Positions 49 through 3,284 of a stretch of DNA of 64,000 nt are shown piece after piece. The first letter of the stretch is position 1; each line of letters starts with the position of its first letter. This stretch comes from Leptolyngbya sp. FACHB-261 (lineage in GTDB: Bacteria > Cyanobacteriota > Cyanobacteriia > FACHB-261). Both the position numbers and the translations under genes were made by a program. The notes beneath the pieces are model-generated. The model made no database searches. It was not told where the DNA came from and saw nothing but the letters and a program-made list of their open reading frames with translations. The DNA lies in assembly GCF_014696065.1 (NCBI RefSeq), contig NZ_JACJPL010000027.1, positions 558,001 through 622,000 on the forward strand. The letters are read 5' to 3'.

Positions 49-831
49 ATGGAAGCCAAGAGCAGCTCATACAAACCTGAAGTGACTGTAAGGCAGGATG
101 CGATGGCTTATAGCGCTCAAGACGTTGAAGCACAGATGCCCGATACCAGCCAGCTCTTAAGCGATGAACCAGAGATGGAAAGCTCTCTGCACTACCTACA
201 ATTGCTGATTTTGGTCACCTGTCTGGAGTGGCTCTGGCGCGGGCGCGAAGACTTTTTCATTGGGGCTAACCTCACCATCTACTTCAGCCGCCAACAACTA
301 CGCAACCGCGACTTCCGAGGCCCAGACTTCTTCCTAGTCAAAGACACCGAAAAGCGGCCCCGCAAATCCTGGGTGGTATGGGAAGAAGATGGCCGCTACC
401 CCGATTTGATTATTGAACTACTGTCTAGCTCCACGGCTGATACTGACCGTAATCTCAAGAAGACCCTTTACCAGGACCGCTTCCGGACACCTGAGTATTT
501 CTGGTTTTCGCCTGAGACTTTAGAATTCGCTGGCTTTCGGCTTCATGGCAGGCAGTATGAGGCAATCACCCCTATTGCACAGGGTTGGCTTTGGAGCCAA
601 GAGCTAGAGCTGTATTTGGGTGTTGATGCAGGTCAGTTGCGCTACTTCACAGCAGAGGGCGAGAGAGTTCCCACACCTGAGGAAGCAGCACAACAACAAC
701 AGCAACGGGCCGAACAAGAACAACTACGCGCTGAGCAAGCAGAACTTGCCTTGCAACAAGCTCAAACTAGAGCCGAACAGTTGCAAGAACAGCTACGAGC
801 GCTTGGAATTGACCCAGAGGCATCAAGCTGA
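49..831 (+). CDS. Uma2 family (DUF820) restriction-fold protein with Q-rich coiled-coil tail
   Basis: This 260-residue protein has the Uma2/DUF820 fold of the PD-(D/E)XK nuclease superfamily, a family greatly expanded in cyanobacteria. Visible family marks are PDFFLVKD (about residue 95), PDLIIELLS (about 120) and YQDRFRTPEYFWF (about 145), which matches the usual Y-x-x-x-G-V-x-E-Y-W block. Residues 210-255 form a Gln/Glu/Ala-rich coiled coil with repeated RAEQ units, common in this family. The ATG at 49 follows a short leader with no strong Shine-Dalgarno. It converges on the minus-strand gene ending at 852. The cellular role of Uma2 proteins is not established; nuclease activity is inferred from the fold. 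Confidence 0.85.
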   Translation: MEAKSSSYKPEVTVRQDAMAYSAQDVEAQMPDTSQLLSDEPEMESSLHYLQLLILVTCLEWLWRGREDFFIGANLTIYFSRQQLRNRDFRGPDFFLVKDTEKRPRKSWVVWEEDGRYPDLIIELLSSSTADTDRNLKKTLYQDRFRTPEYFWFSPETLEFAGFRLHGRQYEAITPIAQGWLWSQELELYLGVDAGQLRYFTAEGERVPTPEEAAQQQQQRAEQEQLRAEQAELALQQAQTRAEQLQEQLRALGIDPEASS

Positions 832-851: not shown

Positions 852-2021
852 TCACGAACCTTGAGCTTGAGCCCAGGATTGCCGGCGCTGTAGCCACAAC
901 CCCATAACCAAGCCCAGAAGCACGATGCTGGTGAAATATCCCAAGGCAATCAGCCGAACCAATAGCGGTGGGGCTACGCCTTCAGCCTCAATTTCTTGTA
1001 CAACTTTAAAAGGCTTAAATTGGCGTCCGGCAGTTGACTGCGGTAAAACAGTCACTTCAAGCCGATGCGGTGCCCCATCAAAAAATTGTTGTCGCCAAGC
1101 AAGTTGCCCAGCCGGATCTGGAGTGCCGGTATAAGCGAAAGCCAACCAATTTTCTTCGAGTTGCCTGGTCTGAATCTGAAAAGCTAGATCAGTCGCAGGC
1201 TGGCCTGTTTGTTGATCAATTGCCTGAATTTGCAACTGTGCTAGTTGTCCAACAGTTGCTTGAGTATCGCCGATTATTCGAACCTCTAACCCCTGCGATT
1301 GGGCAATTCCTTGAGGGATTTGAGCGGACGAAACTTCTGAATGCTCATGGTGATGCGCGTGGGATTCTGCCAGCTCAGCACTGATATTGACAACCAGTAA
1401 AGCCACAATTGCCACAAGCACAACAGCACTCAGCAATAGTCGAATCGATTGGGGAGCAATCTCACCCGGTTGGATGACTTGAGGTTTGCCAATCAGCCAA
1501 CCCCCACCTAAACCCACCAGCCAAAGCATCACCGCCAGAATTGCAAAGTTGCGATATTTGTTGCTGTGTTCGCTCACCCGCAATGTGAGTGTTTGGGCAA
1601 TGGGCGCAAAGGCATCGGTATCAACGGGTAAAACCTCCACGGCCAGTCGATAGTTGCCCCGAATCGGTAGCATCTGCTGGAGCTGCAATTCGCCGCGTTC
1701 AGTTTCAGCCGTCAGCTCTAGTAATTGAGTTCCTTCAACTACTGGAAAATCAGTCGAGAACCACGGATTGTGAGACGGTGCAAACAGTTGCAGGTGCACT
1801 TTAGCTTTCGGCAAAGGCTGTCCTGCTGCATCTCGGAGTTGCAAGGTCAAAATGGGTGCAGATTGAGCAGTTTCCCCCGTGGCATCGAAGGGCACCAACT
1901 GGTCAAGCGGCGGTTGGGTAATGAGTTGCAAGCTAGCTTGCGGCAGACGCGCTGAGGCCACAACAGCCAGGCTCAACAGCCCAATTAGGCTGAGGAGCGT
2001 TGTTGATTTGAATTTCAACAT
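852..2021 (-). CDS. His-rich membrane protein in the cobalamin-riboswitch operon, putative cobalt uptake partner
   Basis: A 389-residue protein with an N-terminal signal peptide (about 1-25), an Ig-like beta-sandwich domain (about 30-150) resembling periplasmic FixH/YtkA-like domains, two adjacent membrane helices (about 157-180 and 193-213), a histidine-rich loop AESHAHHHEHSE (about 217-228), a second beta-rich domain (about 245-345) and a last membrane helix (about 353-375). It starts 4 bases after the cbtB-like gene and so shares its riboswitch. It is not the usual CbtA, which is a compact multi-helix protein. The His cluster and the B12 control suggest cobalt binding or delivery, but that function is inference. 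I do not recognise a named family. Confidence 0.7.
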   Translation of the reverse strand: MLKFKSTTLLSLIGLLSLAVVASARLPQASLQLITQPPLDQLVPFDATGETAQSAPILTLQLRDAAGQPLPKAKVHLQLFAPSHNPWFSTDFPVVEGTQLLELTAETERGELQLQQMLPIRGNYRLAVEVLPVDTDAFAPIAQTLTLRVSEHSNKYRNFAILAVMLWLVGLGGGWLIGKPQVIQPGEIAPQSIRLLLSAVVLVAIVALLVVNISAELAESHAHHHEHSEVSSAQIPQGIAQSQGLEVRIIGDTQATVGQLAQLQIQAIDQQTGQPATDLAFQIQTRQLEENWLAFAYTGTPDPAGQLAWRQQFFDGAPHRLEVTVLPQSTAGRQFKPFKVVQEIEAEGVAPPLLVRLIALGYFTSIVLLGLVMGLWLQRRQSWAQAQGS

Positions 2022-2025
2022 AGAG

Positions 2026-2229
2026 CTAGTGGCAGCCGACCAGCAGCGTTTGATGGCGCACGGAGTGCAGCGAATTATGCACCGCTGGATAGGTGGAGAA
2101 ATAGACAGTCCAGAGGATCAAGGCACACAAGGATGTATAAAGAGTGGCCTGTACTGGCAGAGAAAGGGTGAAGCTGATCGCTTTCTGAGACAGCGTTGAT
2201 TTAGCAGAGAGCCGGGAAGAAGCGGTCAT
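2026..2229 (-). CDS. cbtB: CbtB-like cobalt transporter subunit
   Basis: A 67-residue protein with one membrane helix (TLYTSLCALILWTVYFST) and a histidine-bearing tail HNSLHSVRHQTLLVGCH. This matches CbtB, the small one-helix subunit of predicted cobalt transporters with a C-terminal His motif. The ATG at 2229 is preferred: the longer reading frame upstream is the riboswitch itself, and GAGG lies about 8 bases before this ATG. The gene is followed after 4 bases by the His-rich membrane protein. CbtA, the usual partner, is not adjacent. The identification rests on the tail motif together with the riboswitch. Confidence 0.8.
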   Translation of the reverse strand: MTASSRLSAKSTLSQKAISFTLSLPVQATLYTSLCALILWTVYFSTYPAVHNSLHSVRHQTLLVGCH

Positions 2230-2255
2230 GGGTGTACCTCGCACACTAGATTCAG

Positions 2256-2374
2256 CAGCGCATCGGCGGGCATCCTGGCTAGGAGATTTCTCCGTCACAG
2301 TTGCGGGACAGCGTTGGATTCTCACCAAACTTTCCCCGTTACCTCTGGCAGCTGTTCCCTACCAGAACCGAGCA
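2256..2374 (-). promoter_or_regulatory. Cobalamin (B12) riboswitch
   Basis: Read on the minus strand, the leader contains the hallmarks of the cobalamin aptamer in order: GGGGAAAGTTTGGTGAGAAT, then CCCGCAACTGTGACGGAG, then the B12-box-like AGCCAGGATGCCCGCC. It ends about 27 bases before the cbtB ATG with no evident intervening terminator. Control by masking the ribosome binding site is therefore the simplest model (inference). High B12 would switch off cbtB and the His-rich membrane protein. The 5' limit is approximate. Confidence 0.88.
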
Positions 2375-2479: not shown

Positions 2480-2887
2480 TTAGAACGGTTGCACCCATTC
2501 ACTGATGCCTGGACGGTTCAATAAGGGCTGAAGCTCCTGTACCGCCAGGATTAGCCCTGGCACGGCTTCTGCCTGCCATTGACCATCAGCCCGACGCCCA
2601 GTTTGCAGTTGCAATGACACACCAAATCGGTCTGGAAAGCCTCGTGCTTCCAGCCATACTTGTTCGGTTTCGGCCTCACAGACTAGCGTTTCTTCGTCCA
2701 TTAGCTCAGTTTTGAGAGCCGCCATACTTTCGCTCAATTCCAACAGTAAGCGGCAAAAATCGCGCAACTCGAGGTTGGTGAGTTCCAGTGACCAGAGATC
2801 GCTACCCACTAAACCAACAAACAGCTCTGATCCCGGTGCCCAACCCAAGCGCCAACCGGGTCCCTCTAGTAATTTTCGTTGGCTCAT
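2480..2887 (-). CDS. DUF1818 family protein
   Basis: A 135-residue protein of the cyanobacterial DUF1818 family. The family pattern is visible: a GPGWRLGW start, FVGLVGSDLWSLELTNLEL, a DFCRLLLEL helix, ELMDEETLVCEAETEQVWLE in the middle, and a C-terminal helix ILAVQELQPLL. No catalytic motif or membrane segment is seen and the function is unknown. It lies 28 bases downstream of the HigA-like gene on the same strand and may share its transcript. Confidence 0.8.
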   Translation of the reverse strand: MSQRKLLEGPGWRLGWAPGSELFVGLVGSDLWSLELTNLELRDFCRLLLELSESMAALKTELMDEETLVCEAETEQVWLEARGFPDRFGVSLQLQTGRRADGQWQAEAVPGLILAVQELQPLLNRPGISEWVQPF

Positions 2888-2915: not shown

Positions 2916-3284
2916 CTAGTTTTGGGCTTCAAAAAAGACAGCTGGAGAGACGTGAAAGAACTCAGTGAGTTTACGAATATGCTCTGCTGTCAGCTTACGC
3001 TGTCCCTTCAATACTTCCGAGACAATCGACTCGGTTTTGAAGATTGGAACCAAATCTTTTTGACGCAGGTTTAGGTCGAGCATCAGAGTTTTGATCAGTT
3101 CGACGCCATGAATGTCTGGGACGAGTTCCTGCTTCTGCTCGTATTCATACACCAGTGCGCCCAAGACATTCAGATAGTCTTGTTCGTCTGATGTCAGCTC
3201 ACTGCGATCCAACAAAGCATCGATCACTTTTTGAGTTGCTTGCAGCTCTGGCTCGGATGTAATGGAACACGGTAAAAATGCCAT
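2916..3284 (-). CDS. HigA-like antitoxin / HTH regulator (COG5499 type), no toxin alongside
   Basis: A 122-residue protein. The N-terminal half is helical and acidic (TSDEQDYLNVLGALVYEYEQ). The C-terminal half is a helix-turn-helix with NLRQKDLVPIFKTESIVSEV and RKLTAEHIRKLTEFFHVSP, the pattern of HigA/COG5499 antitoxins, which normally repress their own toxin-antitoxin operon. No HigB/RelE-like toxin gene lies next to it: mfd is upstream and DUF1818 downstream. A strong inverted repeat lies 29-64 bases before the ATG and is a likely operator. Confidence 0.8.
   Translation of the reverse strand: MAFLPCSITSEPELQATQKVIDALLDRSELTSDEQDYLNVLGALVYEYEQKQELVPDIHGVELIKTLMLDLNLRQKDLVPIFKTESIVSEVLKGQRKLTAEHIRKLTEFFHVSPAVFFEAQN

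Follow-up and report, generated by a model that had tools for sequence, protein, structure and literature searches.

A cobalamin riboswitch, a divergent CbtB and an undescribed Ig-like membrane protein: a candidate cobalt uptake module in cyanobacteria

Cobalt uptake for pseudo-B12 is unsettled in many cyanobacteria, as HupE and CbiMNQO miss some genomes. The locus described here, located in a 64-kb window (the whole stretch of DNA that was analysed), raises the question of whether cbtB, preceded by a cobalamin riboswitch and followed by the gene of a large protein at the position where CbtA would be expected, encodes a variant cobalt uptake system, as a sequence-only reading of this DNA had suggested. 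The three elements form one consecutive run on the minus strand (Table 1). The riboswitch, at 2387-2248, is the sole Rfam match in the window; run on the leader, as the reading had proposed, the Rfam cobalamin model scores above its gathering threshold over its full length, which confirms that the aptamer core and the B12 box had been correctly recognised. The element had been placed at 852-2374, an interval whose end cuts off 13 bases of the riboswitch. The succession of cbtB and, four bases on, a 389-residue protein is borne out by the ORF coordinates and, for cbtB, by the match to PF09489. The neighbouring genes, without evident cobalt link, encode a Uma2-type nuclease (49-831, plus strand), a DUF1818 protein (2480-2887, minus strand) and a helix-turn-helix protein (2916-3284, minus strand).

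Translational cobalamin riboswitches have a kissing-loop hairpin, and the expression-platform hairpin of cbtB fits that description. Its loop holds the Shine-Dalgarno sequence GAGG of cbtB (2240-2237). The hairpin is found in 39 of 55 leaders, 3-8 nt ahead of the start codon, and its third stem pair covaries (C-G in 22, G-C in 6, U-A in 6); RF01482 is drawn with a similar CGAGG loop at its 3' end. When the leader was folded by minimum free energy, the result carried no information (z 0.16). Judging from the leader, the operon is almost certainly under the control of the cobalamin riboswitch. We propose that, when B12 is plentiful, the kissing-loop hairpin of the aptamer would hide the ribosome site and neither CbtB nor its partner would be made, and that both would be produced when B12 (or cobalt) is short.

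Table 1. Features of the operon, with their positions in the window and the evidence for each.
Feature	Position	Strand	Evidence
Cobalamin riboswitch aptamer, RF00174	2248..2387	-	cmscan 54.5 bits, gathering 31.5, E 8.8e-11, full model 1-189
Expression-platform hairpin, stem GUG/CAC, loop CGAGGUA	2230..2246	-	directly before the cbtB ATG
cbtB, 67 aa, one TM helix	2026..2229 (ATG 2229, stop 2026)	-	PF09489 29.8 bits, cut-off 27
CbtB partner, 389 aa, undescribed family	852..2021	-	ORF; 4 bases after cbtB stop; family survey
Partner, predicted signal peptide, about residues 1-25	1947..2021	-	N-terminal hydrophobic segment by sequence reading; helix 6-17, low pLDDT
Partner, Ig-like domain 1, residues 30-149	1575..1934	-	AlphaFold2, full protein and domain alone
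Partner, TM helix, residues 153-178, Gly-rich	1488..1565	-	AlphaFold2 helix
Partner, TM helix, residues 191-223	1353..1451	-	AlphaFold2 helix
Partner, His/Met-rich loop, residues 217-234, ESHAHHHEHSEV in the window protein	1320..1373	-	composition
Partner, Ig-like domain 2, residues 239-347	981..1307	-	AlphaFold2
Partner, C-terminal TM helix, residues 353-388	858..965	-	AlphaFold2

The first protein of the operon exceeds the Pfam cut-off for CbtB, a model matched by 32 of 33 homologues at E<=0.01, and remains below the TIGR02459 equivalog cut-off (22.8 against 64.4 bits); on this profile evidence, it is a divergent cyanobacterial CbtB. The C-terminal invariants among the 33 homologues are H51, H55, R58-H59 and C66-H67 (numbering of the window protein), and this His/Cys tail, H-x3-H-x2-RH-x6-CH, would face the periplasm according to the positive-inside rule. 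At one locus (L060, G083:C4:25554-26372), cbtB is in two pieces about 600 bases apart, apparently through an insertion, the partner gene being intact.

The partner exceeded the cut-off of no Pfam or NCBIfam model, and the CbtA profile PF09490 gave no match to it at E<=1, nor to any of 50 homologues at E<=0.01. The AlphaFold2 model, computed from a 50-sequence alignment (mean pLDDT 85.7, pTM 0.79), backs the Ig-like domains that had been read in the sequence; there are two of them, homologous in register (hhalign P 7e-4), i.e. duplicated. The protein had been described as exported; its predicted signal peptide and three helices indicate that it is membrane-anchored and not simply exported. In the Gly-rich helix, G170, G173, G174 and G178 are invariant in the family alignment (A5). 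Invariant residues of the family also include D91-F92-P93, E96-G97-T98, R121-G122, E151, K155, V257-G258, W309, F314, H319, P351-P352 and R356. The helices have no invariant His, Cys or Met, so that they do not readily suggest a pore. In the loop that follows the second helix, of low confidence in the model, His accounts for 14.9% of the residues and Met for 6.2%, compared with 1.7% for each overall. The HAHHHEHS motif that had drawn attention is present in the window protein at about residues 221-228, but was ruled out as a conserved metal site: only the composition of the loop is kept across the family, with at least one His or Met in 45 of 45 members and a sequence that otherwise varies freely. 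As regards the fold, domain 1 matches macroglobulin domains and the copper proteins CrdA (Z 9.4), PmoD (8.6) and FetP (7.7), and domain 2 matches macroglobulin domains and FetP/P19/FtrA with Z of about 7-8, values that unrelated Ig-like folds also reach and that are no proof of function. Of 50 members, 2 match PF13115 (YtkA-like), with E 0.0039 at best, a PDB sequence search returned only weak transthyretin and adhesin matches, and Foldseek with the whole protein retrieved generic Ig-like folds. At L084 (G157:C6:73403-74556), the partner gene lies in two overlapping frames, an apparent frameshift.

The extent to which the two proteins belong together was evaluated with a profile of five homologues against 388 cyanobacterial genomes. 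The partner family occurs in 54 of them, one (G312) having only a 32-residue fragment, which leaves 54 full loci in 53 genomes (G212 has two). CbtB is directly upstream, on the same strand, at all 54 full loci, a recurrence of the same order that is not chance. A second set, overlapping the first, was obtained from GTDB contigs by an alignment-based scan (a single-sequence scan of these contigs gave no relatives): the best 80 of 148 relatives are all cyanobacterial by title, and the family is found so far only in cyanobacteria. CbtB is upstream in 77 of these 80, or 77 of 78 without the contig-edge loci L140 and L169; the true orphan, from Aliterella atlantica (L149), has pyrE in its place. 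The partner family therefore follows cbtB as anticipated. CbtB without the partner was found in one of the 388 genomes (G338), whose operon consists of riboswitch, cbtB, DUF1636 and cobW; a match in G021 was set aside as spurious. CbtA (PF09490) was above cut-off in none of the 388 genomes, and the search for it in the whole source genome gave no match either. The suggestion that the partner replaces or joins CbtA thus holds as to position, and the absence of CbtA from the survey fits replacement better than joining. Having no CbtA subunit, the operon does not qualify as a CbtAB transporter, but it may still work like one.

The riboswitch is less constant than the gene pair. A covariance model was built from 21 riboswitches of these loci, 52 bits or more being taken as a strong match. 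Such a match exists at 41 of the 54 survey loci, including one (L090) where it precedes cbiX, the first gene of a cbiX-cbtB-partner run; the riboswitch is weak at L048 (29.5 bits) and absent at 12. Among the 80 GTDB loci, where Nostocales abound, a strong upstream riboswitch is present at only about 19; most Nostocales loci are without a canonical one, and Rfam found none in seven of them even at E 0.5. At several Nostocales loci (L104, L107, L126, L129, L151, L106, L130), the outer frame ATCGGTT...ACCGAT is kept upstream of cbtB and the core GGGGAAAG/CCCGCAACTGT is lost. We read such coreless leaders as riboswitches that have decayed or been altered, perhaps into a variant that recognises another ligand. 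Others in this order (L134, L138, L143, L158, L160, L155, L175) have upstream of cbtB a different, well conserved leader, TTGTCAAATA..TATCGTATATCTTTTTGCAATC, without riboswitch. Further cobalamin riboswitches less than 4 kb from the partner, not ahead of cbtB, were seen at L111:2314-2463 (minus strand) and L163:2886-3029 (plus strand); matches to microRNAs at Nostoc loci (E 5e-4 or weaker, far below gathering) were taken as chance.

On plasmids, the riboswitch-cbtB-partner run lies inside heavy-metal islands in Leptolyngbya boryana, Chroococcidiopsis thermalis, Oscillatoria nigro-viridis and Stanieria cyanosphaera, and the pair occurs without the riboswitch in Anabaena cylindrica and Tolypothrix, so that the riboswitch is kept in four of six annotated plasmid islands. 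In total, 14 cyanobacterial plasmids carry both genes, the partner being annotated as 'hypothetical protein' or 'unknown protein'. The large plasmids L190-L195, about half of them predicted conjugative, have islands with P-type ATPases, ArsR/SmtB, multicopper oxidase and ZIP, Nramp, RND and RppAB. This distribution suggests that the module spreads horizontally with metal-handling cargo. Five changes of the riboswitch label are seen on the protein tree, at least three of them forced by well-supported branches, and repeated loss would be the simplest reading. Its retention in most plasmid islands, together with this piecemeal loss, indicates that the riboswitch is probably ancestral.

The link between the family and cobalt or B12 genes extends beyond cbtB, as the neighbourhoods show. 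In both locus sets taken together, which overlap, DUF1636 is found downstream on the same strand at 18 loci, nearly always immediately adjacent (0 of 40 control regions), and a CobW GTPase on the same strand at 9 loci, downstream except at L086, where it is upstream (1 of 40 controls); cbiX and CbiMNQO genes complete the list. In the source genome, the RF00174 element before cbtB is the only cobalamin riboswitch over the cut-off. On contig C15 (L188:2150-3319), cbiX, whose product has a His-rich tail, is preceded by a riboswitch of the AdoCbl type that stays below threshold (RF01482, 43.7 bits of 50). No HupE was found in this genome; its ECF CbiM/NikM protein scores 81 bits against a CbiM equivalog cut-off of 184 and has no riboswitch nearby. 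The genome also encodes a NicO/RcnA-like protein that contains a long run of His. An operon of Anabaena that has a cobalamin riboswitch and begins with alr4027, a putative metal-binding protein, is up about 100-fold without cobalt (PMC10878165), and no CbtAB-type transporter was listed in 16 cyanobacteria (Zhang et al, 2009; PMC2667541).

Since the partner stands where CbtA would be across cyanobacteria, the pair is probably part of cobalt acquisition for B12. The reading to which we lean is that of a B12-repressed module for cobalt capture and import, with the partner in place of CbtA. The partner, anchored by its three helices, would present its two Ig-like domains and the His/Met-rich loop on the side of the CbtB tail; on the outside of the plasma membrane, Co2+ would be captured by the two proteins together and then moved inward, with the partner as a stand-in for CbtA. 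That cobalt is the main physiological metal is likely, and import is equally to be preferred to export. A physical complex of CbtB and the partner appears reasonably probable, and it is somewhat doubtful that the two proteins themselves form the permease instead of feeding another one. Tentatively, and on the unlikely side, CbtB and the Ig-domain protein could transport cobalt on their own, as a permease of novel architecture where the place of CbtA has been taken by a three-helix protein unrelated to it whose periplasmic metal-capture domain is duplicated; in some cyanobacteria, this permease would be the only cobalt importer. Counting against the main reading, that of a B12-repressed import module, are the 13 of 54 survey loci without canonical riboswitch, the many loci among Cu/Zn/Ni resistance genes, the presence of CbiM/NikM or HupE in many module genomes, and the two genomes in which one member of the pair occurs without the other (G338 and L149). 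Of the variant cobalt uptake system first suggested, the riboswitch control, the protein in the position of CbtA and the links to cobalt and B12 genes stand; given that metal-resistance islands on plasmids also harbour the module and that its riboswitch is lost in most Nostocales, the metal is one that we infer.

It could be argued that the pair works as an accessory, capturing the metal or serving as a metallochaperone, and feeds CbiMNQO, NikMNQO or HupE, like NikK/NikL or CbiN of ECF transporters, an explanation that we consider unlikely. In Plectonema radiosum (L167), a complete CbiM-CbiN-CbiQ-CbiO set, three members of which pass the NCBIfam cobalt models (CbiM 305 bits against 184, CbiN 111 against 105, CbiQ 165 against 112), comes right after the partner, and at L062/L162 (same genome), L063 and L179 the partner is followed by a CbiM/NikM-PDGLE fusion, CbiQ and CbiO, sets that look more like the nickel type. 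The lack of ligand residues in the partner helices and the copper-binding proteins among the best bacterial fold matches would also suit such a role. ECF genes, however, are directly downstream at only 5 of 134 loci (from overlapping sets, two loci being from one genome), and these fold matches are no higher than those of unrelated Ig-like domains. In favour of an accessory role, CbiM/NikM is found in 44 of 53 module genomes against 235 of 335 others (p 0.07, in the direction of co-occurrence). HupE is found in 31 of 53 against 236 of 335 (p 0.11); a clean exclusion between the module and either of them was rejected as not significant. Two genomes, G024 (one contig, 99% complete) and G060, possess the module, and CbtA, HupE, CbiM and NicO were not detected in them, which speaks against a purely accessory function.

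The surroundings of the module could also reflect general Cu/Zn/Ni homeostasis or resistance, the B12 riboswitch being a lineage-specific overlay, although we judge this improbable. Many chromosomal loci, like the plasmids, lie beside metal-resistance genes, with an enrichment at survey loci relative to 40 control regions for P-type ATPases (15/54 against 1/40), multicopper oxidases (13/54 against 0/40), ArsR (11/54 against 0/40) and Nramp (8/54 against 0/40), the p-values of which are too small because related genomes were counted apart; the repeated loss of the riboswitch points in the same direction. Against it stand the probable ancestry of the riboswitch and the neighbours DUF1636, CobW, CbiX and CbiMNQO, which are cobalt genes. 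Location in resistance islands would also suit a cobalt exporter or tolerance device, which is very improbable: a cobalamin riboswitch normally turns genes off when B12 is plentiful, and an exporter would call for the opposite sense. In Methylococcus, canonical CbtBA acts like an importer, and cobalt toxicity is relieved by knock-down of canonical cbtB (PMC13108547). The operon of G338, devoid of the partner, might suggest that CbtB alone does the cobalt work and that the partner is a passenger; this is hardly credible in view of a linkage maintained at 54 of 54 and 77 of 78 loci although the members are mostly 37-55% identical to the window partner.

A B12-repressed cobalt import module would provide a two-gene candidate for cobalt uptake in roughly one of every seven genomes sampled, as well as in the laboratory strains Leptolyngbya boryana, Chroococcidiopsis thermalis, Anabaena cylindrica and Tolypothrix. 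In L. boryana, the two genes are NIES2135_62540 (cbtB) and NIES2135_62530 (partner). No description of the CbtB-partner pairing was found in the literature, where it may already have been listed in a B12 regulon. Among known systems, CbiMNQO and NikKMLQO comprise membrane-bound or periplasmic accessories of Co/Ni uptake (CbiN, NikK, NikL), some under B12 riboswitches, and in a few genomes the module is directly upstream of such ECF genes. Unlike ECF transporters, it has no ECF genes adjacent in the window or at nearly all loci, and the partner and 50 members match no Pfam domain of NikK, NikL or CbiN, the comparison being made at the Pfam level. The beta-sandwich fold of the partner domains is that of CrdA, the soluble domain of PmoD, FetP/P19 and YtkA-like proteins (Z about 7-9), but identity is 11-17% and no conserved copper site was identified in the partner; as complement and transglutaminase domains give similar Z values, only the fold class is shared. 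HupE, a cobalt permease controlled by B12 riboswitches in cyanobacteria, would have a comparable role in B12-regulated cobalt uptake, but is an unrelated protein and is absent from the source genome. The closest parallel is CbtAB (CbtBA), with which the module has in common the B12 riboswitch control, the RH...CH tail of CbtB and a second membrane protein encoded right after cbtB. It differs from CbtAB in that this second protein is unrelated by profile to CbtA, with predicted periplasmic Ig-like domains and three transmembrane helices, and in that CbtA is missing from the source genome and the sampled class. To our knowledge, CbtB has been known only as the small companion of CbtA; its persistence with an entirely different partner makes its own role testable.
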